Shown here: piece after piece, positions 15,790-57,296 of the stretch
Numbering within the stretch: the stretch's first letter is position 1
Layout: every line of letters starts with the position of its first letter
Origin: Caldicellulosiruptor hydrothermalis 108
Lineage (GTDB): Bacteria > Bacillota > Thermoanaerobacteria > Caldicellulosiruptorales > Caldicellulosiruptoraceae
Direction: 5' to 3'
NCBI RefSeq assembly: GCF_000166355.1
Contig: NC_014652.1
Span: forward strand, 2,652,501 to 2,716,500
DNA length: 64,000 nt
Notes under the pieces: generated by a model
What the model was told of the DNA's origin: nothing
What the model saw: the letters and a program-made list of their open reading frames with translations, nothing else
Database searches by the model: none
Made by a program: the position numbers and the translations under genes

Positions 15790-15884
15790 GTTTGTAGCCT
15801 CCCCGTTGGGGATTGAAACCAGAATACTCTTTTTCTGTTTTATTTACTGCATTTGTTTGTAGCCTCCCCTTTGGGGATTGAAAC
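15790..15884 (+). CRISPR. CRISPR array 1, leader-proximal part (2 repeats, 1 spacer)
   Basis: 30-nt repeats lie at 15790-15819 and 15855-15884, with a 35-nt spacer between them. The first repeat has CCCCGTTGGGG and the second CCCCTTTGGGG in the palindromic core. The array then breaks off into 7.4 kb of foreign DNA and resumes at 23293 with the same repeat variant. Confidence 0.9.
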
Positions 15885-15945
15885 ACGCAGAGCATATATT
15901 ATATGATTCAATAAAATGTTTATACTTTACAGAGGAGGGAGTCAA

Positions 15946-18882
15946 ATGAAAATTAAAACCAAAAAAGTAATTAACATTATTGTTATTTTAGCATTATTAA
16001 CAAATTTATGTATATCAAATACAGCAGTAGTTTATGCAGATACCAATTCTGCAACTGCACAGATTTCAAATGTACAGGTTACAACTACCAAGACAGCAGG
16101 TAGAACTGTAACATACAAGATTAATTCTATAAATCCAGACGAATTAAGCAAAGTAATAAATGATTTTAACAGCAAGTATGGATATTTGGATGTAGAGGAT
16201 ACTATAATTATAGAGTTTCCAGGTGATTATTTATTTAATTTGATTAATGATTGTTTGTTATATGAGTTTGATATTACAAATTATACTAGTAGTATGAGTC
16301 AGTATAGTCACGAAGTCTTAGATAAAAAGTATGGTGCTATGAAAACATCAATTAGTTCTACTAGTCTTTACTCATTTATGAGATACAAAAAAAGCAATGG
16401 TAAGTATAGATATGTTTATGTAGATCCACGTTCTCCATTTAATTTTTATATAGAAGATAAAGATTTTTATAAGTATTTTAAAGTTAAAGAAGATTCAATG
16501 TTTAGCAGTTCTGATGCAAAGCATATTTTTTATTCAAAAGATTTCTTTTCACTAAATCCAATTGGACAATATTTTTTTAATAGATTAAAAATAGCACCTA
16601 TAAGCGGGTATTCATTTATATATCAGGGTAAGATGTATATTTGTGGATTGGAGCCAGCTTATAACTTTTTCAAAGAGTTTTTAAGTAAGCCAGCAGAAAA
16701 TATAGATGATTTACCATTTGAACCTATAGAGTCTGCAGAGGGATTTAAGGTAATTATAGCAAATGCATTGTATAAAACAAGAATTTGTGATACAGAGACT
16801 TCTCTTGAACTTGGTAATATTTGGGATGGACAAATTCCATATCTAATACAGACATTAAAAGATATAAGACAGAAGGCTAAGGAAATGACTAAAGGATGTA
16901 AAGATTTAGTAGATGTGGGATTTAGGTTGGAGAGATTTTTTTATACTGAAGTTAAGTATGACTACAAGTGGTTAGAAGAAGGTGTATCAGCTGTAAAAGC
17001 TGAAAAGATAAAAAGTGATAGTGAATGGAATACTGAAAAAGGGAAAAAATATGCTTGGGCTAAAAGTTCTATTATGAAAATATGGAATTATAGATATGGT
17101 ATATGTCAAGATTATGCACGTTTAGCTGAGGTTTTAGGATTTTACATGGGTTTAAATACATTATATGCTGATAGCAATGATTTAAATCATGCATGGTATG
17201 TTCACGATATATATGGATTACACTGGTCTTCGGATACTTTAGGTACTACTACTGATCATATATTAACACCTGTAACTATATTAACTATAGGTCATCAAAT
17301 GGATAATAAACCTGTTATAAGTGAATTTTTAGAGTGGCATACAACAAGAGGGTTTATAAATTTATTAAAAACTAATAGGAGTTTTGCCGAAAAATTATTT
17401 AAAAAGCTTGTAGACAATTATAGAATACTTTCAACATATTCACCTGAAGTATTTCTTAATGATGATTATAATTATCGTATTTATGACATAAATGGTAAAT
17501 GGGCACCAAATTCTTTTACCCAAGATTTATGGAGAAGAGAAGCTTTATTTGTATTATTTCCAAAATATAAAGAGCCACCTAAGAAAGTAACTTCTATAGA
17601 ACAGGTGTTTAAAGATTTGGATAGTAGGAATATGAATGATTATGAAGTTAGAAATTATTATATATTGTTACAAGATTTATTTAAGAAAGAGCCCAAGTCT
17701 TTAGAGGAAGGCAGACAAGTTCCTATAGATATACTAAGAAAAATTTTAAATTATGTAACAGTTAAAACTGGCAAAGAATATAATTCGTTAAAGGTAAATG
17801 ATGATTTAGAATTAAGATATATTGATAAATTAGATTCATATGTTGTTCTTGATCCAAATATTCTTGTATGCAACAAAGTATATTATACTTATATTTCTTA
17901 TGTCTTCCCTTATGTAGATTTATACTTTTTAGTAAAACCTGTATATAAAAAAGAAGGTATTGCATATGGTATTTATGTAGGTAAGTTACCTAAATCAGGA
18001 GATTTAAACTCAATAGATAACAAGTTTATAGAAGATTATATTAAGAATATACCAATTTATAGAGCAAATCTTGCTGAGAGTGATTTAGCTTTTAAGACAT
18101 TTACAGTAGAAGATGAACCAGTTGTTGATAAATTCGATATAGTGGTTAGAGAGGGAGACACTTTTAAAATAAATGTATCCCAAAAGTATGGATTGCCAAA
18201 CACAAAGTTTAAGTTTATATCTGTATCAAAAGAAAGCATGGATAAGTTATTACAAGGTAAAATATCGGAAGCCAGTTCACAAGTAAGTGAGATAAAATAT
18301 TTAGGCAATTCTACGTTTAAAGCATTGGAACCAGGAATTGTAAAAATTATACCAGTATATGAAGATGAGCAGCTTTTGTTGGATTTAGGTAAGACTTTAT
18401 TAATGTTTTCACCTGATAATAAGAGTAATTATTCTAGTAGTGAGTGGCTTAATAATCACTTTGCATTTAGACAAGATTGTGGTATCATTGATATTTTAGG
18501 CAATTCTTATAGAACAACATGGGGATTTACAAACGAAGAAAAGATTGCTAATAGCACATGGTTTTATACAATACATCCATTTGATGATGAGGCTAGAAGA
18601 TTGTTCACTACTTTTCCAGCAATGTCAATTAAAGTTAAGGTATTACCATCACCTAAAGCTTATTTTAAAACAAGCAAAATAATAGCTAAAGTTGGAGCTG
18701 TAATAACATTACCGATAGCAACTACTGGCAGTGGAGCAAAATATAAGATTGTAGTGTCAAATCCTAATATAGTAGAAATTAAAAATAATAATAGTGTAAG
18801 AATAAAGTCTAAAGGTATAGTTAAACTAACTATTATAAATAGTAATGGAAGTAAGAGCGAATGTATTGTAGAGGTAAAATAG
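15946..18882 (+). CDS. Large secreted protein with transglutaminase-like core and Ig-like C-terminus
   Basis: The 978-residue protein has a signal peptide (KKVINIIVILALLTNLCISNTAVVYAD). A transglutaminase/papain-like core near residues 380-440 shows Cys387 (YGICQDYARLAEVLGFYMG), His415 (NHAWYVHDIYG) and Asp430 (LHWSSDTLG) in the order and spacing of the catalytic triad. The last 70 residues look like a bacterial Ig-like (BIG2-type) domain (IVEIKNNNSVRIKSKGIVKLTI). The rest is unrecognised. It probably acts outside the cell as a protease or cross-linking enzyme. ATG at 15946 follows GAGGAGGG. Codon use is strongly AT-biased. It is the first gene of the foreign segment in array 1, and the next gene also encodes an exported protein. 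Confidence 0.75.
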   Translation: MKIKTKKVINIIVILALLTNLCISNTAVVYADTNSATAQISNVQVTTTKTAGRTVTYKINSINPDELSKVINDFNSKYGYLDVEDTIIIEFPGDYLFNLINDCLLYEFDITNYTSSMSQYSHEVLDKKYGAMKTSISSTSLYSFMRYKKSNGKYRYVYVDPRSPFNFYIEDKDFYKYFKVKEDSMFSSSDAKHIFYSKDFFSLNPIGQYFFNRLKIAPISGYSFIYQGKMYICGLEPAYNFFKEFLSKPAENIDDLPFEPIESAEGFKVIIANALYKTRICDTETSLELGNIWDGQIPYLIQTLKDIRQKAKEMTKGCKDLVDVGFRLERFFYTEVKYDYKWLEEGVSAVKAEKIKSDSEWNTEKGKKYAWAKSSIMKIWNYRYGICQDYARLAEVLGFYMGLNTLYADSNDLNHAWYVHDIYGLHWSSDTLGTTTDHILTPVTILTIGHQMDNKPVISEFLEWHTTRGFINLLKTNRSFAEKLFKKLVDNYRILSTYSPEVFLNDDYNYRIYDINGKWAPNSFTQDLWRREALFVLFPKYKEPPKKVTSIEQVFKDLDSRNMNDYEVRNYYILLQDLFKKEPKSLEEGRQVPIDILRKILNYVTVKTGKEYNSLKVNDDLELRYIDKLDSYVVLDPNILVCNKVYYTYISYVFPYVDLYFLVKPVYKKEGIAYGIYVGKLPKSGDLNSIDNKFIEDYIKNIPIYRANLAESDLAFKTFTVEDEPVVDKFDIVVREGDTFKINVSQKYGLPNTKFKFISVSKESMDKLLQGKISEASSQVSEIKYLGNSTFKALEPGIVKIIPVYEDEQLLLDLGKTLLMFSPDNKSNYSSSEWLNNHFAFRQDCGIIDILGNSYRTTWGFTNEEKIANSTWFYTIHPFDDEARRLFTTFPAMSIKVKVLPSPKAYFKTSKIIAKVGAVITLPIATTGSGAKYKIVVSNPNIVEIKNNNSVRIKSKGIVKLTIINSNGSKSECIVEVK

Positions 18883-19056
18883 TATTTGAATTACTAATAT
18901 ATTTTCAATATCAAGTTGGCTGCATAAAGGAGGCGAGTTTACCTCATACCTCTTTACATTTTTGAAAATTGAACTTCTGCGAGTATTGATACATTTTAAA
19001 TTGGTACTTCAATTAAAGCAATATATCAAATCAATCAATACAGGAGGTGCATTGAA

Positions 19057-21420
19057 ATGATAAAAATTAAATTGAATAAGAAGTCAATTATAGCATTGAC
19101 AGTTGTGGTTGTATTTATTTTAGTATCAGTATTGGGTGCTATATTTTATAATGAAAACACAAAACAAGATACTATGCAGAATATTAATAGTCAGCCTTCT
19201 ACAGATACTGGTGTTAAAAACGAAAAGTCAAATACAAACATTGATAAGTTATTTAACTGGATGAATGTATTTAAAGTTTATGCAGATGCTACAGAAGATA
19301 CAAATGATATTTTAAGCGAAGAAAACATTAAAGCAGTTCCTGTATGGCAGCCAGGAGAAATTAATCCAGTTATATATCAAAAAAATGGAAAATTGTATAG
19401 GCTTAATGATATTCCAATAGAAACATTAGTAAAGTATTGCAGGTTGTTGCATGATATTGAAGTAGTAGATATACTTCGTAAATATAATAATTCTAAGGCA
19501 AGATTTACTGATCGTGTAGATGGTTCAGAATGGTTTCCAACAAAGTGGGGGCTTCTTTATAGAAGAATAGGACAGCCGTTTTATAGTAAAGCAATTTGTT
19601 ATTCTGATGGGTATACTCGTCCTGTAACTTTTATGGAAAAAATGGTAACTTCCTGGTATAGTGATCATTATAATTGGTTCACATTAGTTCCACCAATAAA
19701 AATTAAATATGATACAATAGATGTATCATATGATCCAAATTGTCAATATATAAGCAATCGAAAAAGAGAACTTGCACGCAACTTCATACTAGTACCAAAA
19801 CCTTATATAGATAGATATTTGGCTAATTATCCAACATATTTGCCTTATCAAGATATAAAGGAAGGAATTCCACTTGGTGGAACAAATAAGTTTATATCAG
19901 AAGAAGAAGTTTTGGCTCTTCCACGTGCATTCATGGATGCATCTGAGGAGCTTTTTCCTATCTATTTTAACAGAGACAGAGTAAAATTTGATATAACTAG
20001 GGCTTATACTTATCTTTCTATAAGATTCCTTAAAGATTTTGATACAGAGGCTTATAATAGATTAGCTTCGGTAATCAAAAAGTATAAAATGTCTTTAGGT
20101 AAAGATGCATTTGTATCAGTAAGAATGCAAAACGAACCAGTTATTGTTAATGGAGCAGCATCTAGACAGTATTTTTTGATAAGTTTAAAATTTATGTATA
20201 TAAAACCTACTCTTGATATAAAGCCAAAATTTGCTGCAGTTCCAAATAAAAAAGGAGTTCTGTATTTAATACAACTAGATCCATATACAATTTCATTTGA
20301 AAAATTATACTGTATATCAGAGTTATATTCCAAGCAAGATTTAAGACCATTATTAACAGAGTTAGGTAAAATATACAAAGCAATAGCAAGTGGTAAGATA
20401 GATGGAAATGGATATTTCACATTTTTAAAGAATGTTAAGTTAACAAGTGGGCAGTCTAATTCATTTTTTAAGAACATGGGTAAGCTAGGAGACGAATATT
20501 TGAAGTTAGGTAAATCAAAGAACCCTTTATATGTAGCAGCATCAAGGACTACAACATTCAGAGCAGCTTGTCTGAATTATAATAGAAAGTATATTGTAGA
20601 TATATTCTATGATATATTAAACACCATGGGTTATTTGGATGATTTTAAGCAAGCATGGAATTTAGGAGCAAAATATGCTAGTGCAGTTTATAATACACCA
20701 GATCCAAAAACATTTGATCCGATAAATTTGGTAGATTACCATATATCACAAGATTACTATCCAACTTTCATTTTTGGTAAGGTAGATTTAAATGTAGCTG
20801 GGTTTAATAAATATAAAATAAGAGATTATAAGAATTTCGGCAAAGGCTGGTATAGTTTAGTAAACTATTATGTAATGAATCAGGCAATTAGTAAGAATAT
20901 AGTCAATAAAGATATATTTAGCAAGTATTATAATAACAATTATTTTGTAATGCCAATTAGCACTGATGCATGGGCAACAAAGGATTTTAAGAATTTAACT
21001 CCAGGAGCAACACCACATTTGCATAGTATAATGATTATTACTGGTAGATATCCTGATTTAGATAATAATGGCAAGCCATATGTATACAGATCAACATGGA
21101 ATGGTGTTGTAGGTCCAACACTTCCAATAATCTTTAGGTTATTTCCAGAGTTTGTAAATAAAGATAAGACAAGATACCCATACTTTGCAGTAGAATCTAT
21201 GTTATTTGATGGAATATCATTTTATGATAAGCCAGTTATACCATGGTCAGATATGAATATGTCTAAATCATATAAGGATTTAATACAAAGATCATGGACT
21301 ACAAACTTGGCAATAAAATCAGATGTAAAAGAAGGAAATGATTTTAACCTGTTAACTACAAATGAATATTCTATTCTGCATCGTTGCATATATAATAATG
21401 AATATCAAGTTGTTGAATAA
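19057..21420 (+). pseudogene. Large exported protein of unknown function, 3' end split off by an IS
   Basis: The 787-residue frame starts at an ATG after AGGAGGTG and has one N-terminal membrane segment (IIALTVVVVFILVSVLGAIFY), then an acidic linker (VYADATEDTNDILSEEN) and a long Tyr/Lys/Asn-rich body. Its true 3' end has been displaced. The codons AAT GAA TAT at 21397-21405 are repeated at 22521-22529, and the frame resumes there as KKYIEDAKKNAITQDIIMKN to a TAA at 22634. The final QVVE is encoded by the IS end. The segment PVIYQKNGKLYRLNDIP resembles PVVYVGDELYRIKKDD in the gene at 22719, suggesting related proteins. No family is recognised; it may still be stable because only the last 35 residues are replaced. 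Confidence 0.75.
21397..21405 (+). repeat. Left copy of the 9-bp IS target-site duplication
   Basis: AATGAATAT, repeated at 22521-22529. It reads in frame as Asn-Glu-Tyr on both sides, which confirms the insertion borders. Confidence 0.8.
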
Positions 21421-21451
21421 ATAATTATACCATTAATGTTATTATATAGAA

Positions 21452-22399
21452 CTATAAATTATTCCACGTGTATTTAAAAGAAAATTTACAGTTTTCAATT
21501 TTTTGAATATAGACCTCTATCAAATAAGTAATCATTATCCAGTCCACATGCCTCTTATATGTTCTAAAACCTCTTAACCTTATTTGTTCTAAATTGTATT
21601 CTCCTTTTAACTTCCCAAATAATCTTTCAATTTTTGTCCTTTGCTTATATAACCTTTGTCCTTCCTCACTTCTTAAAAATTCCATATTTTTTACCCTCAA
21701 AATATTTTTTACATTACTAAAATCCTTACTATTTCTCTTATTTACCGCCGCTACAAACTTTATCTCAAGTCTATCTGCCACCTCAAACCACTTCGCACAA
21801 TCATAACCTGCATCCGCTAATATTACTTCAGGTCCAAATATCTTAGCTTCATACAAAAGTTCTACTACTTTACTGTCATGGATATTTGCACGTGTCAACC
21901 ACCATACTATAGGTATAACCTCATCTTCAACTGTTGCCAACACATGTAATTTATACCCATTGTAAAAACCTAAACTAACACATACTCCTACTTCTGCCTC
22001 TTTGTCACCCCTCGAGCTTCTCAAAGGTGTGGAATCTATAGCACAAACTTTTGTCTGCGGAACTATTTCTCTCACTAAAATTCTTGCTATCCCTTCTATA
22101 TACCCTTCTTCAATTACCTTTGCCCATTTCGAAAAATATGAATGATCAGGGCTCTTCTCTATCCCTATAGCCTTTTTAAATTCTTCATCTTCATTTATCT
22201 TGTATTCTAATTCCCTGAAGCTGTTTATCTTGTTTTTGACTTTGTAAACAAAACAAGCTATTATATGGCTTAGCTTAAATTTCTTCGGTCTTCCTCTCCT
22301 GCTGCTCTTTATCTTTAATCCCAGGGCTTTTATTACTTTCTCAATTGTCATAAGTATCTTTAAAAATTTTTGTTTTTGTGTTTTAATAAAATTAGACAT
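21452..22399 (-). CDS. IS transposase, DDE (IS4/IS5-like) family
   Basis: The 315-residue transposase shows the three catalytic residues of the RNase H-like DDE core: Asp in VCAIDSTPLRSS, Asp in VILADAGYDCAKW and Glu in QRTKIERLFGKLK. An N-terminal helix-turn-helix region (RGRPKKFKLSHIIACFVYKVKNKINSFRELE) precedes it. The Y-(2)-R-(3)-E-(6)-K-like pattern around the Glu fits the IS4/IS5 superfamily. The second ATG at 22399 is chosen because AAGGAGG lies 6 bases upstream. That ribosome site is one arm of a perfect 12-bp inverted repeat and would be masked in read-through transcripts. The gene appears complete. Confidence 0.9.
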   Translation of the reverse strand: MSNFIKTQKQKFLKILMTIEKVIKALGLKIKSSRRGRPKKFKLSHIIACFVYKVKNKINSFRELEYKINEDEEFKKAIGIEKSPDHSYFSKWAKVIEEGYIEGIARILVREIVPQTKVCAIDSTPLRSSRGDKEAEVGVCVSLGFYNGYKLHVLATVEDEVIPIVWWLTRANIHDSKVVELLYEAKIFGPEVILADAGYDCAKWFEVADRLEIKFVAAVNKRNSKDFSNVKNILRVKNMEFLRSEEGQRLYKQRTKIERLFGKLKGEYNLEQIRLRGFRTYKRHVDWIMITYLIEVYIQKIENCKFSFKYTWNNL

Positions 22400-22400
22400 T

Positions 22401-22465
22401 GCCATCCTCCTTTGTTAGGTGTTTTTAGTCTTCTCTTATCGTAATTTTACCTCAAGGAGGATGGC
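22401..22465 (-). promoter_or_regulatory. Inverted repeat that can sequester the transposase ribosome binding site
   Basis: GCCATCCTCCTT (22401-22412) and AAGGAGGATGGC (22454-22465) are perfect 12-bp complements 41 bases apart. On the transposase mRNA the 3' arm contains its Shine-Dalgarno sequence. Transcripts started outside the IS would carry both arms and fold; an internal start would leave out the 5' arm. This mirrors known IS safeguards against read-through expression. Confidence 0.7.
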
Positions 22466-22520
22466 TTTTTATATATCTATTTATTGTCTTTTCTGTTAAT
22501 CCCTTTTATTCAACAAGCTA

Positions 22521-22634
22521 AATGAATATAAAAAATATATTGAAGATGCTAAGAAAAATGCAATTACACAAGACATCATCATGAAAAATGCAGGATATAT
22601 CAAGTCACTATTAGGCAACATTTTTGAGAAGTAA
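22521..22634 (+). pseudogene. Displaced 3' end of the exported-protein gene
   Basis: The frame starts with the second copy of the target duplication (AAT GAA TAT) and continues KKYIEDAKKNAITQDIIMKN, then AGYIKSLLGNIFEK, to a TAA at 22632-22634. It joins in frame to codon 783 of the gene at 19057 if the IS is removed. Confidence 0.8.
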
Positions 22635-22718
22635 CTAATAATACAGTTTGCATACAGGGTTACTAGACTATAATAGTAACCCTGTATGCTTATACTAAAT
22701 CAGGAGGTGGTATATTTT

Positions 22719-23300
22719 ATGAAGTATTTTGCAAAGTTCAGGTTAAGAGAAAAGATTAGAGTGAAAAAGTCGTTTATCAGGTTAATTTTTACGTTAGTTA
22801 TCATGATTATTAGTTTCATTGCATCATTTATAGCTAAAGCAGATAGTTCAGATCCAGTTAGTTTTATATATGATCCTGTTGTTTATGTAGGTGATGAATT
22901 ATATAGGATAAAGAAAGATGACTTATATAATTTAAGTATTAGAGGACTTTTTGATTTGTTAAGCCAGAAAAATTATATAAGTGATTTAATGACACCATCA
23001 GTATTAAATAAATCAGATGAAAGTAGTAATGATCTTTATAATTTAATAGCAGAAAAACTTTCAGTTAAGGTATTTCCTTTTTTAAATATTTTAGAACCCA
23101 GTGGCAACTTTTTAATACAATCTGAGTTAAACACAAGGAACTTAAGCATGGGTTTAAGCATAACCGAAAAAGCAGATAATACAGCTATAGCAAAATTAGG
23201 TAATTTATTAAGCAAGGCTTTAGCAGCTGGTTCTCCACTGCTTGAGCAAGTAGTTAGCACAATAAAACTTCCATATGGAATAGTACCAGAGGGTTTGTAG
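22719..23300 (+). pseudogene. Exported protein cut off at a CRISPR repeat
   Basis: The 193 codons start at an ATG preceded by AGGAGGTGG. A basic N-terminus and one membrane segment (LIFTLVIMIISFIASFIAKA) point to export. PVVYVGDELYRIKKDDLYNL resembles PVIYQKNGKLYRLNDIP in the gene at 19057, so the two are probably paralogues, and a full copy would be much longer. The last three codons and the stop (GGT TTG TAG) come from the CRISPR repeat that begins at 23293, so the coding sequence is truncated by the junction. It is the last gene of the foreign segment. Confidence 0.75.
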
Positions 23301-23389
23301 CCTCCCCTTTGGGGATTGAAACGTGCTTAGCAGTTTGCTGCGATTTGTGCCATCTTTGAGTTTGTAGCCTCCCCTTTGGGGATTGAAAC
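23293..23389 (+). CRISPR. CRISPR array 1, middle part (2 repeats, 1 spacer)
   Basis: Repeats lie at 23293-23322 and 23360-23389, identical to the second repeat of the leader-proximal part, with a 37-nt spacer. Foreign DNA abuts on both outer sides. Confidence 0.9.
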
Positions 23390-23739
23390 AAGACTGCAAG
23401 ACTATAGAAGATTTCGGGAGAGTAGCTTTTAAACTACGTTTTATTGATAAGAAAGCAGCTTGGAATGATATATACGAAAAGACTAAAGATTTTGACGTGA
23501 TAGGTTATGTGAAGGAACATTATATTGATTATGTTGAGCAGAACAAAAACGAAATAATAGGGGCTATTATGGAAAACACTGTTGAACCTGAAAAAAGAGA
23601 CGAGATGAGAGAAACAATGCGTGGATGGTTGGACGAGGCAATACGAATGGTTAAGAATGGCGAGGAGTTGTATTGGATGCCTGAACGAATCTTCTATGAT
23701 AGCGTGGCAGTAGCAATGAAAAAGATAGGGGTGAAATGA
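23390..23739 (+). pseudogene. 3' part of a phage- or plasmid-like gene starting at a CRISPR repeat
   Basis: The frame runs out of the repeat (the repeat's TTGAAAC gives Met-Lys and the first base of the next codon) and continues QDCKTIEDFGRVAFKLRFID for about 115 codons to a TGA overlapping the next start. There is no ribosome binding site at the repeat, so the 5' end was lost when the DNA was joined here. The protein part is charged and helical with a Glu/Arg-rich middle; no family is recognised. Overlapping genes of this size are usual in phages. Confidence 0.6.
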
Positions 23740-23933
23740 TGTATGTGATAGCTGTATTGATTAGAGATAAAAGAAACGAAGAAAAGATATACGAAATGAT
23801 AGAAGACGCATTTTCAAGTGATGTGGTAAATGATGAAATACTGAAAAAACGAGAAAAAGTTTTGGAAGAAATTAAAAGCATAGGGGAAATTGAAGTGTAT
23901 AACTACATTCAAAAATATGGAGTTAGTATGTAG
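23739..23933 (+). CDS. Small hypothetical protein of the foreign segment
   Basis: The 64-residue product (MYVIAVLIRDKRNEEKIYEM, then helical Glu/Lys-rich sequence) begins at the ATG of ATGATG, with AGGGGTG 5 bases upstream, and overlaps the preceding stop. It ends 30 bases before a terminator-like hairpin. It is complete but not recognised. It lies inside the 651-bp foreign piece between CRISPR repeats, so it probably came from a phage or plasmid. Confidence 0.5.
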   Translation: MYVIAVLIRDKRNEEKIYEMIEDAFSSDVVNDEILKKREKVLEEIKSIGEIEVYNYIQKYGVSM

Positions 23934-23940
23934 AAGTTAG

Positions 23941-23973
23941 CCACCCAACCCAACAGGGTTGAGGTGGTATTTT
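23941..23973 (+). terminator. Terminator-like hairpin inside the 651-bp foreign piece
   Basis: CCACCCAACCC pairs with GGGTTGAGGTGG with a small bulge around AACA, followed by TATTTTTAT. Confidence 0.6.
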
Positions 23974-24001
23974 TATGCCTTCTTGTAAGGGGGTGAGTGT
24001 C

Positions 24002-24040
24002 ATGGCTGAGAAGGTTAGCAACAGAGCATGGGGCGAAATC
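24002..24040 (+). pseudogene. First 13 codons of a gene cut off by a CRISPR repeat
   Basis: AGGGGGTGA and five bases precede an ATG that reads MAEKVSNRAWGEI and then runs straight into the repeat at 24041, ending at its TGA. It is a genuine gene start with an optimal ribosome site. Its body is missing. Confidence 0.6.
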
Positions 24041-24249
24041 GTTTGTAGCCTTCCCGTTGGGGATTGAAACCTCTCCTTCAGTTCGCTTATATCCACCTTC
24101 TCTACTAGTTTGTAGCCTCACCGTTGGAGATTGAAGGTGGTGGGAGGTTTTGTAGACTCCACGTTTGGGATTGTAAGAAGGTGAATTTTAACCTCTATGT
24201 CGGAAATTGAGAGGAAAAAGTGGGTAGCCTTTTCTTTGTGGATTGAAAA
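24041..24249 (+). CRISPR. CRISPR array 1, distal end with degenerate repeats
   Basis: A good repeat (24041-24070, CCTTCCCGTTGGGG variant) and a 37-nt spacer lead to a damaged repeat at 24108. Three more degenerate copies follow at about 24147, 24186 and 24220, spaced only 34-39 bases apart, so hardly any spacer is left between them. Confidence 0.75.
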
Positions 24250-24255
24250 AAGAAA

Positions 24256-24993
24256 GTGATAGTCACTTCTTGGAATCTGAAATATATTCTGATTGAGAAC
24301 CAGTCAACTGTAAAAAAAGAGATGCAGCAAAAGATTTTAAAGTACATGATAAGATTATGGGCAGAGGAGATAAGAAAAGGAGTACAAATCCTGCCAGCAA
24401 TTATACCGATAGTTGTATACAATGGAATAGGTGAGAGATGGAGTATATCAACCGACCTTATGGAAGCATTTGACATATTTAAGGATGATGTCTTCAGGTA
24501 CAAAGTAGTTGACATAATAGAGCTTGAGGTAAAAGAGTTTTTGGAAAGAGAAAAGGATATACTACTACCTATAGTGTTTTATCTTGAGCAGGTAAGAGAA
24601 GACAGGAGTGAGCTGATAAGAAGGCTTTTAGAGGTTGAGAAGAACTTAAAGAAGCTGAGTAAAAAGAATGTAGATAGATTTTTGGAATGGTCGTATCGGA
24701 TTATCAGACCGAGGTTTTCTGAAGAACAAAAGTCAGAGTACGATAGAGTTGCAAAAAGGGTTAAACAGGAGGGAGTGAATGCCATGGGTGAGTTTGTATC
24801 AAATGTTGCAAGACTTTTAGATGAAGCAAAGACAAAGGATTTTTTGGCAGGGAAACTTGAAGGAAAGCTTGAAGCCACAATAGAGTTTGCAAAAAGATTA
24901 ATAAAAAAGGGATTTAGTGATGAAGAGATTGCAGAGCTTACAAAGCTTCAGATTGAAAAAGTCAAAGAATTGAGAAATTCCATGGTAAATTGA
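24256..24993 (+). pseudogene. Rpn/YhgA-like PD-(D/E)XK gene lacking its 5' end
   Basis: From about 24283 the product matches the intact homologue at 35075-36028 (YILIENQSTVKKEMQQKILKYM against YILIENQSTVKRDMAQKILKYM) and continues in register through RVKQEGVNAMGEFVSNVARLLDEAK to the C-terminal DEEIAELT helix. The first 85 or so residues, including the ADIV catalytic aspartate, are absent; only GTG and nine odd codons precede the match. The family is a nuclease-fold group found in many copies in genomes. The fragment starts just after the degenerate end of array 1, so the deletion joined array and gene. Confidence 0.8.
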
Positions 24994-25077: not shown

Positions 25078-25341
25078 CTATGTCATAAAATCCACAGGAT
25101 TTTTTTCAATGCCAATTATTTGCCTTTCTGAGTACCAGGTATTTTGAAATTTGTAGATAATAACTGAATCTTCAGACAAATCCAGTATTCTTTCAAGTTC
25201 GAGAATTAGTCTTCTCAAAGTCCCCTCTGATATATTTCCTTCAAATACCGAATTTTGTACCCATGTAAGATATTGTCTGCATTTTTTCAAAGCTTTTGCC
25301 ACCCGTTTTTCATTGACATCATAAACAAGAATCACAAACAT
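25078..25341 (-). CDS. cas2: CRISPR adaptation endoribonuclease-fold protein Cas2
   Basis: The 87-residue protein has the ferredoxin fold with MFVILVYDVNEKRVAKALKKCRQYLTWVQNSVFEG, the standard Cas2 start (Asp in YDV) and VQNSVFEG. It forms the Cas1-Cas2 integrase that inserts new spacers. ATG at 25341 follows GTAGGAG; four further codons upstream overlap cas1. It is the last gene of the type I-B operon and overlaps the end region of cas1. Confidence 0.95.
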   Translation of the reverse strand: MFVILVYDVNEKRVAKALKKCRQYLTWVQNSVFEGNISEGTLRRLILELERILDLSEDSVIIYKFQNTWYSERQIIGIEKNPVDFMT

Positions 25342-25346
25342 AGCTC

Positions 25347-26339
25347 CTACCACCTTGCCACAAAAGGTTTGTATTCTATATTTTCTAAAAACAATTTTTG
25401 AAGCTTGTATGCCTCCATACGGATGAGCCTTTTGTAACTTACTTGAGTATTTAGTTTCGGATGCATTATAGTAGAGTAGAGCTTTTGGTTGTACTCAGAC
25501 ACAAATAGCTTTTTACCCTGGTCATTTAGAATAATTCCATTTAATTCCTTTTCAAAATGCTTTTCGCTTAGTACTTTCTTGTTTACAAGAGAAAATATCA
25601 CCCTGTCCACTATTATTGGTTTGAAAATTTCAGAAATATCCAAATTCAAAGAAAACTTACGCTGGTTTGTGGAATGAAGATACCCTATGCGCGGGTCAAG
25701 CTGTGTTTGGTAAATCTCCCCAAGAGTTGTGGCATACAATAGTGAATTACCAAAACTAATCAGCGCATTTATTCTGTCAAGAGGTGGATTTTTGCTCCTG
25801 CGGACAAATGTAAAATTTTCGTCATCCAGTATCTTATTAAAACACCTATAGTAGATTTCTCTTATATTCCCCTCCAAAGCCATAAGCGTATTTACATCAC
25901 TGCAGGCGCTTATGTTATGGCGCATTCTTTCGATAGTTTCTATCTCATCTTTTAACATATTTCCACGGGAATTGTAGTACCTCAGAACCACAAGCATGTT
26001 CAAAACAGCACCTTCAACAATTGACCTTGCAATGGTTATTCTTTTATTATAGTCGTTGTAAAATTCTACCTGCTTGAGTATTACAATGCCTGAGTTGTAA
26101 TGTTCGCGCGGGTAGTATGTACCAACGTAGTACTCATACCTGTTGAAAAAGTGTACACATATATTCTTTTCTGTCATGAACTCCAAAAATCTTTTGTTTA
26201 TGTCAACCTCTCCAAATATAAAAACTGATTCTATCTCTTCAACAGGAAAATACTTTTTGCCTTCATCTGTTTCAAACATGATGGTGTTATCTTTCCTTCT
26301 TAAAAATCCCGAATTGAAAACATAAAGGTCTTTTTTCAC
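25347..26339 (-). CDS. cas1: CRISPR integrase Cas1 (type I-B)
   Basis: The 330-residue protein has an N-terminal beta domain (MKKDLYVFNSGFLRRKDNTIMFETDEGKKYFPVEEIESVFIFGEV) and an all-helical catalytic domain with the conserved metal ligands: Glu in ALEGNIREIYY, His in IGYLHSTNQRKFSLNLDISEIFKP, and Asp/Glu in the segment that follows. It inserts spacers next to the leader together with Cas2, with Cas4 trimming the prespacer. It starts with GTG after GGGGTGA. It is the only cas1 in the window, so all four arrays must rely on it or on genes outside. Confidence 0.95.
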   Translation of the reverse strand: MKKDLYVFNSGFLRRKDNTIMFETDEGKKYFPVEEIESVFIFGEVDINKRFLEFMTEKNICVHFFNRYEYYVGTYYPREHYNSGIVILKQVEFYNDYNKRITIARSIVEGAVLNMLVVLRYYNSRGNMLKDEIETIERMRHNISACSDVNTLMALEGNIREIYYRCFNKILDDENFTFVRRSKNPPLDRINALISFGNSLLYATTLGEIYQTQLDPRIGYLHSTNQRKFSLNLDISEIFKPIIVDRVIFSLVNKKVLSEKHFEKELNGIILNDQGKKLFVSEYNQKLYSTIMHPKLNTQVSYKRLIRMEAYKLQKLFLENIEYKPFVARW

Positions 26340-26385
26340 TTCAAATCACCCCGAAAAGTTTTTTTGCGGACAATGGACTTGTTTT

Positions 26386-26883
26386 TCAAGCAAAACAATA
26401 TTCCCTGTAAGCACACTTTGGACAATATCGGCATGTGGCTGCAGGAGGCGGACTTTCTTTTTCAATTATAGTTTCTATCTCAGCTATCATCTTTTCCAAT
26501 TTTTCTTCTTCCTCAGCTGTCAGAACAACCTCTTCTTTTTTTCTTTCCTCTGGATAAAAAAGCACTCCTTTTGCTGAAATTCCTGCTTCTTTTAGTAGCT
26601 TTATATAAAACAAAAGCTGATACCTTGATGCTTCTTTGAACCTTGAAGACTTCTTTGTTTCACCAATCACTATCTCATCTTTGTCCTGATACAGAATGTC
26701 AAACACTGCATTGCCGAATTTTATTTCCTTCTGATCTTTCCTGTAATAATACTCATGAAGAAACCTGCCAAGCACAATGTTATCGTCGTTCTCATCTGGC
26801 AAGATGCTATGTGCCATGAGCCACACCTGTCTTTTGCAGATGTTGTAATACCAGATGTAAACACCTGTCATGTATATATCCAT
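26386..26883 (-). CDS. cas4: CRISPR adaptation nuclease Cas4
   Basis: The 165-residue RecB-like nuclease has a conserved N-terminal cysteine (YYNICKRQVWLM), the PD-(D/E)XK core (AVFDILYQDKDEIVIGETKKSS: Asp, Glu, Lys) and three C-terminal cysteines (CRYCPKCAYREYC) that together hold a 4Fe-4S cluster. It trims prespacers and selects the PAM side. The ATG at 26883 is used because everything further upstream overlaps cas3 in another frame. It lies between cas3 and cas1. Confidence 0.9.
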   Translation of the reverse strand: MDIYMTGVYIWYYNICKRQVWLMAHSILPDENDDNIVLGRFLHEYYYRKDQKEIKFGNAVFDILYQDKDEIVIGETKKSSRFKEASRYQLLFYIKLLKEAGISAKGVLFYPEERKKEEVVLTAEEEEKLEKMIAEIETIIEKESPPPAATCRYCPKCAYREYCFA

Positions 26884-26911
26884 TTTCAAAACACCATCCT
26901 GTTTCTTAAAC

Positions 26912-29335
26912 TCAGGCAAAAATAATATGGTCGTTTGGGTCATACACAAATCCTGTCTTAGAGCTATAGTATCGCTGGCAGGATGTGGGTGGCAAAGATA
27001 ATATTCCTTTTTCTTCATCAAAAATCTGGGCGTATTTTAATGGCACAGAAATTGTGTATTCAAAAAGGATATTTTTGAGTTCAAGGTAGATTTCTCTTCG
27101 TTTGTAATAATCTTTTATGGAAAAAGAGTTTATATACCTTTGATAAGCATCTTCTATTTCTTCATTGTTTCTTATGATGACGCTGACATACCCACCCCGC
27201 TGCTGGATAAGACTAAACCTTGAGATTGTGAGCTCTTCCTTTTCCAGAATACTGTCAAACTTTAAAAGCCTTATTGCCTTCAAAAACTCTTCAGACTTTT
27301 TAAATGATTTATTTTCTTTTATCATCCTGAAATAATTATCAATCAGCATACCATAGTCTCTTTCTTCCACTTCGGGATGCTTCAAAAGAAGTCCTCTTGA
27401 TATTTCAATTGCCGTGTTGCCATAAACTCTTTTTGCAAAGGTTATGCCACTTTCATCTTTCATGTTTACAACCAGCACATTGCCCTGGCTTTTTTCATTG
27501 TGCCTATTGCACCTTCCTGCACACTGGATTATTGAATCAATAGGAGCTATGTCTCTTACTACACAATCAAAGTCAAGGTCTACCCCTGCCTCAATCACCT
27601 GAGTTGAAACAACAATGGGTTTTGCTCCGCTTTCTAACATTTTTTCTATTTTCTTTATAATATCTTTTCTATCTTTTGGTACAAGGCTTGCTGAAAGGTA
27701 AATAACCTCTTTATTTTTGAGGTTGTTTTTTATGCCATTGTAGATTTGATGCGACTGATTTATGGTGTTGGCAACAATCAAAAACGATTTTTCGTCTTCA
27801 TATACCTCTTGTAAGAAGAAATCCACAAATTCAGCTACTTTTAAATCGCTGTGGTGATACATAAGCTTTGTTCTGTTAAAAATTGAATAGTCACAAAACC
27901 CTGCAAGCTCACAAGCATCTTCGAATATAAGCGGTTTTGTGGCTGTCATGAGAATAATCTTGCACCTGAAAAGCTGTGTCAGTTTTCTCAAGACCTCTTC
28001 AACAAGCGGCAAAAGCTCAACATCAATTGCCTGAATCTCATCAAGGAGCAGTACTGAGTCGTAAAAAGTATGGAATTTTTTGAGCATCCTGTTTCTGTTT
28101 GAAATTAAAGTTTCAAGCAGCTGGACAAATGTTGTCACTACAAACCCAGATGTCCAGTTTTCTATAAAGCACTCTGAAGCAACTTTTTCAAATACAGTAA
28201 TTTCATCTGTAATTTCTTTCAAAGCTTCTTCTTTCCCCCTGTACTCAACATCAGTTAAATGATGGTGTTTTAACAAGTACCTGTCTCTGTTTTTTTCAAA
28301 ATCTTCTATTGCCTCAAATAGATTTTCGACAACATGGTAGTTTTGGTCTATTATAGAGGTAAACGGAAGAGCATATATTATCCTTCCAGACTTTTTCAAA
28401 ATCTCTTTCAGTTTTAATGCTGCAAAAACTCCTGCCAAAGTCTTTCCTGTACCAGTTGGTGTTGTGATTGAAAATATATCTTTCTCTTTGTTCTTTTCAA
28501 TATTTGAAAGCACAGCCTCAAACACACTTTGCCTTATTCTCTGCAGATTTTTGTCCTGAGTTGGTTTGATAACTTTGTCTCTTACCACAATAAGTCTATC
28601 TGACGAAGCATAGCAAGGAAACAGTAACTTGTAATTTGCAGCCGACATCTTGTCTGCCCATATGAGAAGAGAATACAACTTTTGCTGGGCAAAATAAAGC
28701 TCAGTTCCATCTTTGAAAGCCTGCGGTATCACACCAATCAAGCGAATGCCATATTCAATTCTTTTAAGATATCTTAGAATATCCTCTATAAAACCCCTTT
28801 GCTGTGCCAAAAACTTTTCAAATTCGTTGCCAAGTCCAATTTTTTCAAGCAAAGGCTTTATATCTTCAGCGTTGCACCTCAAATCCTCAATCTGAACATA
28901 GGCATCATCTATTTTCTGAACAAGGTTTATATCTGCCTTGAAATCTCCTTTAAATTTTTCTGGCAGGTTCTTGCTAATATCCTTGACATCTCCGTGATGG
29001 TGAAGAATGCAAGCGTAAATCAAAAGAGATATGACTTCATCTAAAGAAGCTGGGGGGTTCATCTGTTGTAAGCACAGTCCTTTCTTTTGCATCCAGCAAA
29101 AGACTCCAAAGATGGCTGATAAAAAACCATGCTGTGAATGCTTGCTTGATACACCGCTAAGATGACTTTGAAAAAATGTTGTAAATTTCCCAAAGTCATG
29201 ACAAAGACATATAATTTGCAGTGCTTCTTTTTCCCAGTTCTTAAGCTCAACATTTGCCTCCATAGCATAGTGATAAACTTCAAGAAGGTGATCATAAAGA
29301 AGCTTATCAGGATTTTTGTGAGAATAATACTCCAT
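26912..29335 (-). CDS. cas3: CRISPR nuclease-helicase Cas3 (HD plus SF2 helicase)
   Basis: The 807-residue protein has an HD nuclease domain (LLYDHLLEVYHY, CLCHDFGKFTTFFQ) over about 1-230 and a superfamily 2 helicase: Walker A TTPTGTGKTLAG, DEAD-like box LLLDEIQAID, motif III MTATKP, and motif VI around IIQCAGRCNRHN. Cascade recruits it to unwind and degrade target DNA. It starts at ATG 29335 after AAGGTGGG. A terminator hairpin separates it from cas5, so its level may be lower than that of the effector genes. Confidence 0.95.
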   Translation of the reverse strand: MEYYSHKNPDKLLYDHLLEVYHYAMEANVELKNWEKEALQIICLCHDFGKFTTFFQSHLSGVSSKHSQHGFLSAIFGVFCWMQKKGLCLQQMNPPASLDEVISLLIYACILHHHGDVKDISKNLPEKFKGDFKADINLVQKIDDAYVQIEDLRCNAEDIKPLLEKIGLGNEFEKFLAQQRGFIEDILRYLKRIEYGIRLIGVIPQAFKDGTELYFAQQKLYSLLIWADKMSAANYKLLFPCYASSDRLIVVRDKVIKPTQDKNLQRIRQSVFEAVLSNIEKNKEKDIFSITTPTGTGKTLAGVFAALKLKEILKKSGRIIYALPFTSIIDQNYHVVENLFEAIEDFEKNRDRYLLKHHHLTDVEYRGKEEALKEITDEITVFEKVASECFIENWTSGFVVTTFVQLLETLISNRNRMLKKFHTFYDSVLLLDEIQAIDVELLPLVEEVLRKLTQLFRCKIILMTATKPLIFEDACELAGFCDYSIFNRTKLMYHHSDLKVAEFVDFFLQEVYEDEKSFLIVANTINQSHQIYNGIKNNLKNKEVIYLSASLVPKDRKDIIKKIEKMLESGAKPIVVSTQVIEAGVDLDFDCVVRDIAPIDSIIQCAGRCNRHNEKSQGNVLVVNMKDESGITFAKRVYGNTAIEISRGLLLKHPEVEERDYGMLIDNYFRMIKENKSFKKSEEFLKAIRLLKFDSILEKEELTISRFSLIQQRGGYVSVIIRNNEEIEDAYQRYINSFSIKDYYKRREIYLELKNILFEYTISVPLKYAQIFDEEKGILSLPPTSCQRYYSSKTGFVYDPNDHIIFA

Positions 29336-29385
29336 ACAAATCCCACCTTTTTGATAATATATAAAAACTTTTTTGACAAAACAAG

Positions 29386-29417
29386 AAAAACGCCATCTGG
29401 GCTATCCCCCAAATGGC
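29386..29417 (-). terminator. Terminator-like hairpin inside the cas operon, between cas5 and cas3
   Basis: On the minus strand GCCATTTGGGGGATAGCCC pairs back on itself ending in ATGGC, then TTTTTCTTG. It sits 10 bases after the cas5 stop and about 50 bases before the cas3 start. Confidence 0.7.
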
Positions 29418-29427
29418 AAAAGATTTT

Positions 29428-30180
29428 TTACATCACACAAATGCATTCTTTTCTGTCACCTGAAAATTCTTTTATATAATACACCTTGTCCTGCGCACTG
29501 CTATCCAAATCTACCCAGATAGGATTGAGATTTTCGTCGTGAATATACGTCTTGACCTTTGTGGCAAACCTATCTTTGTCAAAATCGCACGGCATCCTGT
29601 CTTTCATAAGAGCAAGAGAAGAAGCAGACTCTAACTCTAAGCTTAGAGATTTTATTAAGCCTGCATCAAGCACAGTTAAAATACCTGCCCTGCTGTCTTC
29701 CCACCTGCAGGCTTCAAATTCACCCAAAAACTCAGTTTTTGCAGCAAACGGAGCACTGCCAAAGTATATCGGAAATTCTGACTTGCCACTTTCAAGCCTT
29801 GCCCTCAAGAGAGAATATATCTTCTCATCTTTTGGCATAACAAAAACTCTAAAACCTACAAATCCATTGTATCCAGCCAAGATCTCAAGCGGCACCTGTG
29901 TGTGGGTATTTGGATTTTTTAGTTCATTTACAGTTGTTGCTTTTATATAGTTCACCGTCTGTACAATCTTATATGTCCTTTCTATCTTTTGTACTGCAAT
30001 CAAAAGGTTTTCTGCTGAGAGCACCTCATAATAACTATCCCTCTCAAAACCCAAGATAGCTGCAACCATACCTTCAATCACAGTCCTCGGTGGCACCAGA
30101 TACGAAAGCGATGATGAGTTTGTATAAAATTTTCTAAAGTGGGCAAACTTGCCTTTGAGGTCAAACACTAAAAATTTCAT
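29428..30180 (-). CDS. cas5: Type I-B Cascade subunit Cas5
   Basis: The 250-residue RAMP begins MKFLVFDLKGKFAHFRKFYTN, then SSLSYLVPPRTVIEGMVAAILG, the standard N-terminal strand and helix of Cas5 (Cas5h). It caps the 5' handle of the crRNA in the Cascade complex. It starts at an ATG after AAGGTGAG and lies 21 bases behind cas7. A terminator hairpin follows it. Confidence 0.93.
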   Translation of the reverse strand: MKFLVFDLKGKFAHFRKFYTNSSSLSYLVPPRTVIEGMVAAILGFERDSYYEVLSAENLLIAVQKIERTYKIVQTVNYIKATTVNELKNPNTHTQVPLEILAGYNGFVGFRVFVMPKDEKIYSLLRARLESGKSEFPIYFGSAPFAAKTEFLGEFEACRWEDSRAGILTVLDAGLIKSLSLELESASSLALMKDRMPCDFDKDRFATKVKTYIHDENLNPIWVDLDSSAQDKVYYIKEFSGDRKECICVM

Positions 30181-30201
30181 TTTCTTCTCACCTTGTTCTT
30201 C

Positions 30202-31086
30202 CTAAACTTCTTCAAGCTCAAAAGTACCAAATGCATCTTTAAAGTCCACAACATTGCCATCGCAAACAAGGCAAAGGTCGGGGTGCTTGAAATAGTAAAT
30301 CTTTGAAATTACATCCTTGTTCTTATGCAAAAACTCAACCAGGGCTGTGATGTCAAGCTGAACGTCTTCAATTTTTCGCGGTTTTTCGACAACCTCAATG
30401 AGTTTAATGTAATCTCTGAGGTCTCCAAGCAAGGTCTTATCATCTACATACTCTACTCTCATGTAAAGCCTCGGATACTGACCTATCTTGCTTCTGGTTG
30501 CCTGAAGTGGAATTGCTTCTTTCATTGCTCTATCCAAAAACTTTAGGTCATCTTCTGTAAGTCTAGTCTCTTTTGCTCTTCTTGCGCTCACTATTCCAGA
30601 AAAAGCTATGAAAGAGTATTTCACTCTGTAGTCTTTGCCTATAGCACCCTGCTGTTTTTTCTCATCGCTTGCAAAATGGCTTGTGATAGATGCTTCTAAA
30701 AGCTCAACCTTGTTCAGAGAATATCCCCAGTTGAACTGTACAGGCCCGATGTAAGTTCTCGTCTCTTTCTTAATAGGTATTGTTGCACCAAAAAGCCTTA
30801 TGTCAATGAAGGTCTCAAGCTCGTCGATGTCTTCTCCTACGCTTTTGATTACTTCTTCTGGCTTTACGCTCTTGCCTTCAATCTTTCGAACATAAATTGG
30901 AATACCCTGGTCGTCTGCATAATCACGGATATACCTTTTTACACGAACATCTGACACAAGGTTTATCTCTTTTTCCCAATCCATCCTTGGTCGATTTTCC
31001 TCATCTGGGTCACCGTTTGGATTGCAAAGCTTAGCATCATAGGTAAACAAAATCTCGCTGTTCTTATCAATAATCTTCTTTTCCAT
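30202..31086 (-). CDS. cas7: Type I-B Cascade backbone subunit Cas7 (Csh2)
   Basis: The 294-residue protein has the Csh2 start SEILFTYDAKLCNPNGDPDEENRPRMD, with the NPNGDP motif, then VSDVRVKRYIRDY and IDIRLFGATIPI. Several copies coat the crRNA spacer in Cascade. It starts at ATG 31086 after GGAGGG and lies between cas8b and cas5, as in typical I-B operons. Confidence 0.95.
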   Translation of the reverse strand: MEKKIIDKNSEILFTYDAKLCNPNGDPDEENRPRMDWEKEINLVSDVRVKRYIRDYADDQGIPIYVRKIEGKSVKPEEVIKSVGEDIDELETFIDIRLFGATIPIKKETRTYIGPVQFNWGYSLNKVELLEASITSHFASDEKKQQGAIGKDYRVKYSFIAFSGIVSARRAKETRLTEDDLKFLDRAMKEAIPLQATRSKIGQYPRLYMRVEYVDDKTLLGDLRDYIKLIEVVEKPRKIEDVQLDITALVEFLHKNKDVISKIYYFKHPDLCLVCDGNVVDFKDAFGTFELEEV

Positions 31087-31106
31087 CTTTCATCAGCCCT
31101 CCTATT

Positions 31107-33173
31107 TTAATTAGATGTATCCTGAGAGTTTGAAGAAGCATTTAATATAACCTTTTGAGTTTTGTATGCATAACCTGAGAGAATGTAAAAAAGAGTTTCA
31201 TACTTGTCAAGCTTCCATGAATCTATGTGCTTGTCTAAAAGCCTCTTCATCTCGGCAAAAATCATCTCGGTGTATGGCAAAATCTTTTCCTGCCTCAGCT
31301 TGTTGTGAACATCATTGCACAGTCTTATAAGCTTTGGCTTGTCAATCCCATTGTAATTTATCTTGTTCAAAATTGGTTTGTGCCCAGCAGAGTCGTCTTG
31401 CCTATCTTTGGTAGCAAGATATTGTTTTGCTCCTATCTCGCCAATCAAAACTCCAAGCAAAAACAGAGCTGTCTTTGGCTCATCATAATTCATTTGTTGA
31501 ATATAGCTTTTGAGATCGTCGGACAAATTCAGCTGCGCAACATCCATCCCTCTTTTCACCTCCAGACAATCCAAAATTTCTAAAAATCTTATAACAAAAA
31601 CCATTCTGATAACCATTGAAGCAATGTCGTTTCCTATAAACTTTGAAAGGTTATACCCTTCTTTCCCGTAAACAACAACACCTACTGCCTTTATGAAGTT
31701 TTCTATGAGAACATCTCTTGCTATTCTCTTGCCAGAAAAAATAGCATCGTAGATGTTCAAAAGCCTTTGCGATTCTTTGCTCTCACTTATGTTTTTGAGC
31801 CTTATTGGGACGCTGTAATAGATGCTTTCAAGGGAAATCTTAAAAGAAGGGTCATTCCCAATGAGGTCAGTATATTGAGAAAAAACTTTTGATGCTGCAT
31901 TGTAAATTTTGTCGAAAATTGAAGGATTGATGTCGGGTATAAACCTTATTATCTTTGTACTTGCTTGTGCTTCTCTGTAAAAAATCAGGTTCAGTAAAAA
32001 ATAGTGGTTTTGGTCGAAATATGAAAGAAAGTTGTATATATCATCTCGCAGTTTTTCCAGGCTGTTATAGTTCCATGCAGTGTTCAACGAATTCGTGATA
32101 TTTTGGGAAAGTTCTTCTAAATAGTTTTTTGTTAGCTTTGCACTTGTGTAAACAAAAGTTGGCAGAACATATACATCAAAAGAGCCAAGCTGGGTTTTAA
32201 GTTTATTTCTTAAAAATATATCTCCTGCCACAAGCTTTAAAAGACATTTTTCGCATACAGTTATGTTCTTGGCATAGTTCTTTTGGTCAAGATAAGATGC
32301 AAATATATTCTGGTTTGTCGTAAAATATTTAAACTTTGTCTTTTTAAATCCTTCGAATGATAAGTTATCTGTGTCCAAACATATATAACATATATTACCT
32401 TCTTTTTGCTTCTTTTTAGTCTTTTCTGTGCCTTTTTTGACCTGGCGTTTGTATGCAATAACAGCGTCAATATACTCTGGATAGCTTGTCAAAGGCTTTC
32501 CATCAACGCAAAGTACATATAAGCCTATTTGCTGAGGTTTTAGCTCTGTTAATTTCTTTAATCCATTTGTACATTCCTTTGTAAAAATATCTCTCAATTG
32601 CTTAAAAATCTTATCTGTTGATTTTGCATTGTTAATTAGTTCTTTGTAAATCTGTGATAGCGGCTTTTCAGTCAATCTCTTGTTGTCATTTACCACTATA
32701 TTGTCAGTATCTAAAAAATAAACGTATTTTTTCTCTATCTTCTGCTGCAAATACCTCTTTTCTTCATCGATAAGTTCAGAAGACTTGCTTAGATATTCTT
32801 TGACTTTGACAAAATACATATCCAATATTTTTTTACATATGTCAGATACTACAGGTATTTCACATTCAACAAGGTTTGGAATGGTTTCTGTTAGAAAATA
32901 TGCAAAAGATGTCGTAGAAGCAAACCATTGTGACGAATTTGCCCCTTCTGCCGAACCAACATAAACATATTTTTTAGCAGTTTCATCATCAATTTCTTCA
33001 GCACAGTCTATATTAATCTTTTTCTCATTTGTAGAAAAGTCAATTTTTGCAACATATCTCTTTTCATCCCCAGATGGAACCTCAATATCTTCTGTAAGAA
33101 CAGATAAATAGGCATCATTTCCAGATGCATCACCAATTAGAACATCACCAATCTCAACTATTTCCTCTATCAA
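31107..33173 (-). CDS. cas8b: Type I-B large subunit Cas8b (Csh1)
   Basis: The 688-residue protein has a zinc-finger-like segment made of ICYICLD and, about 35 residues on, TVCEKCLLKL (two CxxC pairs), found in Csh1-type Cas8b. The rest is helical, with AKQYLATKDRQDD and a C-terminal small-subunit-like helical part, which in I-B is usually fused. It recognises the PAM and recruits Cas3. The TTG at 33173 is preceded by GAGGTGAG. It heads the operon cas8b-cas7-cas5-cas3-cas4-cas1-cas2. Confidence 0.9.
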   Translation of the reverse strand: MIEEIVEIGDVLIGDASGNDAYLSVLTEDIEVPSGDEKRYVAKIDFSTNEKKINIDCAEEIDDETAKKYVYVGSAEGANSSQWFASTTSFAYFLTETIPNLVECEIPVVSDICKKILDMYFVKVKEYLSKSSELIDEEKRYLQQKIEKKYVYFLDTDNIVVNDNKRLTEKPLSQIYKELINNAKSTDKIFKQLRDIFTKECTNGLKKLTELKPQQIGLYVLCVDGKPLTSYPEYIDAVIAYKRQVKKGTEKTKKKQKEGNICYICLDTDNLSFEGFKKTKFKYFTTNQNIFASYLDQKNYAKNITVCEKCLLKLVAGDIFLRNKLKTQLGSFDVYVLPTFVYTSAKLTKNYLEELSQNITNSLNTAWNYNSLEKLRDDIYNFLSYFDQNHYFLLNLIFYREAQASTKIIRFIPDINPSIFDKIYNAASKVFSQYTDLIGNDPSFKISLESIYYSVPIRLKNISESKESQRLLNIYDAIFSGKRIARDVLIENFIKAVGVVVYGKEGYNLSKFIGNDIASMVIRMVFVIRFLEILDCLEVKRGMDVAQLNLSDDLKSYIQQMNYDEPKTALFLLGVLIGEIGAKQYLATKDRQDDSAGHKPILNKINYNGIDKPKLIRLCNDVHNKLRQEKILPYTEMIFAEMKRLLDKHIDSWKLDKYETLFYILSGYAYKTQKVILNASSNSQDTSN

Positions 33174-57288: not shown

Positions 57289-57296
57289 ACTTTTTT

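Follow-up and report, generated by a model that had tools for sequence, protein, structure and literature searches.

The window analysed here is a 64,000-nt stretch of DNA (G000:C1:2652501–2716500) from a 2.77-Mb single-contig genome, and it holds several CRISPR arrays built from one repeat family, which resembles that of Caldicellulosiruptor. With near-identical repeats, a leader and adjoining I-B cas genes, these are CRISPR arrays of type I-B (Table 1). Their normal spacers are 32–39 nt long (mean 35.8, s.d. 1.3, n = 29), 36 nt being the commonest length; two neighbouring spacers, at 34158–34191 and 34222–34255, are identical, a spacer–repeat duplication. One array contains two slots of a different size. 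Near its leader, two intact repeats flank a 7.4-kb segment with large genes of a secreted-protein-like kind, and near its trailer end another pair of intact repeats encloses exactly 651 bp, far more than the Cas1–Cas2 ruler allows for a spacer here.

Inside the 651 bp lies a compact slice of gene order. The first gene is open from the repeat edge to its stop, and its sole upstream start codon is a TTG within the repeat. A complete small gene follows, and then an intrinsic terminator with a predicted hairpin of −21.1 kcal/mol (z = −4.2; 0 of 200 shuffled sequences equally stable) and five U residues directly after it. Finally, a ribosome site, AAGGGGGTGA, precedes an ATG, from which the reading frame runs for 13 codons until the repeat cuts it. 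All four elements had been described in the first-pass annotation, and on re-examination each holds as described. No integrase, transposase or att site was found in the 651 bp.

Table 1 Repeats, spacers, fragments and genes discussed in the text (window positions unless a contig is named)
Feature	Position	Strand	Remark
Leader of the fragment-bearing array	15609–15789	+	89% copy at 33423
Repeat, one 35-nt spacer, repeat	15790–15884	+	Repeats start at 15790 and 15855
7.4-kb segment, genes and IS	15885–23292	+	Repeats exactly at both edges; last 36 nt after TTA
Repeat and normal 37-nt spacer	23293–23359	+	
Intact repeat, left boundary of 651-bp fragment	23360–23389	+	
651-bp contiguous phage fragment in spacer slot	23390–24040	+	
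Phage gene 1, without 5′ end	23390–23739	+	Open to stop at 23739; no start of its own
Phage gene 2, complete, 65 codons	23736–23933	+	Part is the target of a normal 39-nt spacer in G005
Intrinsic terminator	23940–23974	+	Common to fragment and phages
First 13 codons of a phage gene	24002–24040	+	Cut by repeat; gene normally precedes scaffold and capsid genes
Candidate former spacer S2 (last 38 nt of 651-bp fragment)	24003–24040	+	After TCA; putative
Repeat, right boundary of 651-bp fragment	24041–24070	+	Junction common to G000 and G002
Normal 37-nt spacer	24071–24107	+	Matches in G000 and G007 preceded by TTA
Degenerate terminal repeats (trailer end)	24108–24249	+	
Rpn-family nuclease gene, 5′-truncated	24256–24993	+	
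cas2, cas1b, cas4, cas3, cas5b, cas7, cas8b (type I-B)	25078–33173	−	
Array C	52674–53032	+	Last repeat abuts interior of host gene
Host gene without first codons, fused to repeat	53033–53439	+	Same junction in G005
Repeat left of fragment 2	56934–56963	+	
Fragment 2, oversized, 495 bp, phage-like	56964–57458	+	98% ortholog with same ends in G007
Degenerate terminal repeat right of fragment 2	57459–57488	+	
Rpn-family genes near arrays	24256–24993; 35096–36028; L042:1576–2529; L074:360–1289; L012:8265–9230; L013:9694–10443		

Several lines of evidence identify the 651 bp as phage DNA. First, 10 of the 61 genomes searched with the fragment, the source genome (G000) included, gave some match, and in two of these (G009 and G036) the terminator and the gene start after it sit in phage head gene clusters. 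There the order is minor head gene, small gene, terminator and a full-length version of the gene that is cut in the fragment, with scaffold- and capsid-like genes coming after it in G009; these head-cluster gene names are tentative. Second, the fragment's terminator and gene start also occur in IMG/VR phages and in a prophage carried by a related genome, and in both settings they lead into a full gene of about 115 codons. Relatives of this downstream gene are encoded on nine IMG/VR contigs, and in the six contigs read in detail the order is a minor head gene whose C-terminus varies, a small gene that varies too, and the downstream gene. Third, ordinary spacers are directed at this region: G005 has a 39-nt spacer whose match lies in gene 2, and three spacers in G011 match the downstream gene region. 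Because head-cluster homologs and ordinary spacers converge on one stretch, we conclude that the fragment comes from a phage region that CRISPR samples and, judged by homology and gene order, is contiguous phage DNA in a spacer slot.

The head protein itself matches Phage_min_cap2 (PF06152) by Pfam in all three phage proteins scanned, the SPP1 gp7 model scoring under its cut-off for these proteins. The minor head proteins of three phages (L026, L027 and L028) have a common N-terminus and differing C-termini, each accompanied by its own small gene. Such pairs of minor head gene and small gene are candidate toxin–immunity cassettes.

The first-pass annotation had suggested a search for a contiguous match in a phage or plasmid genome. 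Homologs from phage head regions support a phage source; the exact donor, and with it the PAM beside the fragment's own left end, was not found, the 651 bp giving only short, weak matches in collections of phages (8 records) and plasmids (4 records). Protein searches of IMG/VR with gene 1, gene 2, a two-row alignment and the 79-codon gene of a second fragment (see below) returned no match, nor did gene 1 against the genome contigs or the array-1 spacers of G002 against seven related phage records.

The history of the slot can be read from G002, a sister species that carries the orthologous array. Over 101 bp through the right junction (GAAATC/GTTTGTAG) the two species are 96% identical, whereas the left part in G002 consists of the final codons of a minor head gene together with an 82-codon gene that has a nearly identical counterpart in phage L026; this left part, too, begins exactly at a repeat. 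In one old slot on the trailer side, the two species therefore differ in phage allele and in left end while having the right junction in common. New CRISPR spacers enter at the leader end, a route by which old slots keep their content; here the content of an old slot at the trailer end differs between species, and insertion at the leader cannot account for it. The earlier proposal that phage or plasmid DNA was inserted as an oversized spacer is thus supported as far as phage DNA in a spacer slot is concerned, and is not supported as a single step. In a third genome, G001, a mini-array contains a homolog of the fragment that has partly decayed; it too starts exactly at a repeat, at a different point of the sequence, and it extends into the next gene, ahead of a transposase gene. 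Gene 2 is frameshifted in this copy.

The window contains a second oversized fragment of 495 bp, in which a complete 79-codon gene stands between the tail of one gene and the beginning of another that by eye is recA-like. In G007 its ortholog is the oldest spacer of an array that otherwise has normal spacers; the near-identity and shared ends of the two copies establish fragment 2 as vertically inherited. The recA-like frame is broken in both G000 and G007. A DNA pattern search for the recA-like gene matched two contigs, both unrelated. In view of the frameshift in gene 2 and of the broken recA-like frames, we do not claim selection on the captured genes, which perhaps have no function.

Repeats are also joined directly to gene interiors. 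In array 2 of G002 a perfect repeat is followed by a piece of a tape-measure-like phage gene and then an IS; at this array end (L013:2911–3160) the tape-measure piece is internally deleted relative to phages L100 and L101. In array C of the window a perfect repeat runs into a host gene (window 53003–53439; G005 copy at L073:5320–5440, minus strand); a 78% paralog of this host gene lies at window 59257. In G004 (L080:606–1750) and G007 a perfect repeat is fused inside a gene that we tentatively call DUF975-like, the fusion point being at a different place in the DUF975-like gene preceding the 7.4-kb segment.

These junctions come from 12 genomes of the genus, which contain about 1,113 repeats at ≤2 mismatches. 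The survey of gaps between repeats was partial: it covered 37 of the 84 loci with repeats, mainly in G000, G001, G002, G004, G007, G008 and G010, and left aside G003, G006, G009, G011 and most of G005. Four apparent gaps were set aside on inspection: a 492-bp gap in G010 reflects an isolated trailer repeat rather than an oversized spacer, those in G007 and in array 1 of G002 are filled by variant repeats, and a 1.7-kb gap in G001 comprises an array end and an Rpn gene. Rpn-family genes adjoin CRISPR arrays in several genomes, and all six scanned exceed the TIGR01784 cut-off. The family is named for recombination-promoting nuclease, and because of this name its presence beside many arrays hints at a possible link.

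Several ends of the fragments resemble the ends of spacers. Left ends begin exactly at the 3′ end of a repeat in G000, G001, G002 and array 2 of G002, and of the eight distinct left junctions the four that have a homolog crossing the flank were entered into a count. The nearest homolog shows TTA directly before the start in three of the four: fragment 1 of G002 (compared with phage L026), the G001 fragment (compared with the window sequence) and array C (compared with its nearest homolog in G010, the other five of six homologs having TCA). The fourth, array 2 of G002, has CTG in phages L100 and L101. As TTA makes up only 2.4% of the trinucleotides in the window, three or more of four is unlikely by chance (around 5 × 10−5 at that frequency). 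TTA is thus likely to be the PAM, judging from these flanks, an assignment kept from being firm by the GTT and TAG flanks at the matches of two other spacers. The normal spacer just right of the 651-bp fragment has an 88% match elsewhere in its own genome (G000:C1:392978–393018), also with a TTA flank, and is a possible self-targeting spacer.

At right ends, TTA precedes the last 36 nt in two of three cases, the 7.4-kb segment and the G007 copy of fragment 2; the window copy of fragment 2 has TAA at 36 nt from its right end, and the 651-bp fragment has TCA at 38 nt rather than TTA at 36. The probability of two of three by chance is 0.002 for exactly 36 nt, 0.014 for 35–37 nt and 0.036 for 34–38 nt, and somewhat higher in AT-richer segments; the test is weakened because TTA, at 2.4% in the window, reaches 4.3% within the 7.4-kb segment.

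These observations can be brought together if the fragment arose when spacers already resident in the array underwent homologous recombination with their protospacers, an account to which we give about an even chance of being right. An array would have held two resident spacers, S1 and S2, taken in the same orientation from sites of one phage region that lie a few hundred bases from each other. Crossovers within both spacers, each over about 36 bp of homology, would replace S1–repeat–S2 by contiguous phage DNA from protospacer 1 (P1) to protospacer 2 (P2), either in one exchange with a phage fragment or through two successive single crossovers, integration at S2 and then deletion from S1 to its target. 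The product would be repeat, P1 to P2, repeat, with the repeat taking the place of the PAM of P1. Both ends of a fragment would thus once have been spacers: the common right end would be the old S2, and the differing left ends different S1 spacers. Where the target lies on the host chromosome beside the array, a crossover would delete the DNA up to the target and fuse the repeat to the interior of a gene; it would also remove the PAM of the target and so would relieve autoimmunity. Interference cuts or self-targeting may have driven such events.

Replacement of the left part in place, in a trailer slot, favours homologous recombination through spacers, and we count as further evidence the repeat–gene fusions of array C (G000 and G005) and of the DUF975-like gene (G004 and G007). 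Against it, no genome with ordinary S1 and S2 as still separate spacers was seen among the 61 searched with the fragment, 12 of them from the genus. For RecA, 36 bp is a short stretch of homology. The flanks other than TTA described above, at left junctions, right ends and spacer matches, also count against this account, as does the failure of the other array-1 spacers of G002 to match the related phage records.

The main rival is that Cas1–Cas2(–Cas4) integrated one long unprocessed prespacer, or that half-site integration linked the PAM end of the prespacer to the repeat, with the other end repaired later. Exact repeat boundaries on both sides and PAM-like left flanks at three of the four testable junctions fit integration as well as they fit recombination, and pre-existing spacers are not required. 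However, all 29 normal spacers measured lie within 32–39 nt, intermediate lengths are absent from the arrays surveyed, and the right ends resemble canonical spacer ends in two of three cases. Long-prespacer integration also has to contend with the different left parts that share one old slot and one right junction in G000 and G002, and it would require intrachromosomal half-site events for the chromosomal fusions. We consider it possible but, on the whole, unlikely.

Recombination could also have acted on phage DNA that had entered by another route. Here the right end and some phage DNA would have entered once, through integration or as a decayed prophage within the array, and later left ends would be deletions between new spacers and the resident phage DNA. 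The nested left ends in G000 and G001, and the two left ends in the region of the DUF975-like gene, do resemble such stepwise trimming. The fragments of G000 and G002, however, represent two different alleles and cannot be derived from one insert by nested deletion, so a superinfecting phage would have to recombine as well, and neither an integrase nor an att site is seen in the 651 bp; we hold this history to be decidedly improbable.

Still less credible is a repeat-bounded mobile unit, or a cluster of chromosomal genes around which repeats were inserted: the neighbouring 7.4-kb segment does carry host-like genes and an IS, but the 651 bp lack a transposase, their homologs are phage head-region genes and CRISPR targets in a synteny that contradicts this origin, and the chromosomal homolog with repeats inserted around it, named in the first-pass annotation as the finding that would overturn a phage source, did not turn up. 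Finally, an assembly or sequencing artefact, which repeats can in general provoke, has next to nothing in its favour here, because the right junction recurs in G002 and fragment 2 recurs with the same ends in G007, both of them other species.

Recombination between spacer and target, our preferred reading, has precedents. In staphylococci, spacer–target recombination with phages has been reported (Watson 2018; Varble 2019; both cited in PMC8616872), and, as described there, homology between spacer and protospacer recombines the array with the phage, as proposed here. In those systems the array travels with phage particles, whereas here phage DNA appears fixed between two repeats, is inherited across species and belongs to a type I-B system. 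Self-targeting spacers are known to lead to deletions of their target (Vercoe 2013 and others, cited in PMC8616872); there, too, a spacer and a chromosomal target end in a deletion, but here the endpoints of the deletion would be precisely the repeat and the start of the protospacer, so that the array becomes fused to its target.

Other known systems are alike in part. In Streptococcus pyogenes, phages that have inserted at repeat-like terminal sequences likewise place phage DNA at the end of a CRISPR array (PMC3089615); those cases rest on att-site homology and involve whole prophages, in contrast to the small fragments here, with no att site or integrase seen. In Sulfolobus, spacer loss through recombination between repeats also remodels arrays with exact repeat boundaries (PMC3025118), but spacers are lost and the accessible portion of that report describes no gain of phage DNA, whereas here phage DNA is gained. 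The donor-type phages recall the MuF polymorphic toxins of temperate phages in that the C-terminus of the minor head protein varies and a small gene, variable as well, comes next (PMC5576092), although their head proteins best match Phage_min_cap2 and the toxin and immunity roles here are putative. A literature search, with subscription journals mostly outside its reach, found no report of gene-sized phage fragments in spacer slots. Spacer–target recombination is already known; that it should leave pieces the size of genes fixed within arrays appears to be new.

The captured pieces may still have consequences for the cell. The first 36 nt of the fragment, which remain behind a repeat, could act as a guide, and the whole small genes that were captured may confer immunity to MuF-like toxins borne on the phage head. 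Carried further, the arrays of the genus would be traps that also grow by recombination: phage or self DNA cut during interference would recombine with spacers, perhaps helped by Rpn, and leave gene-sized memories with a working left guide, and whole phage genes, including candidates for immunity to the toxin that the phage carries on its head. We offer this last extension as a long shot.

Spacers that recombine with their source virus represent an outcome of CRISPR immunity that has rarely been noticed in nature. If recombination made these fragments, recorded spacers would double as recombination sites, for the entry of phage genes and for the excision of self targets, and the fragments would be natural fossils of spacer–target recombination. 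The same process would account for the fusions of repeats to gene interiors, and programs for array detection that set an upper limit on spacer length may split such arrays in two.
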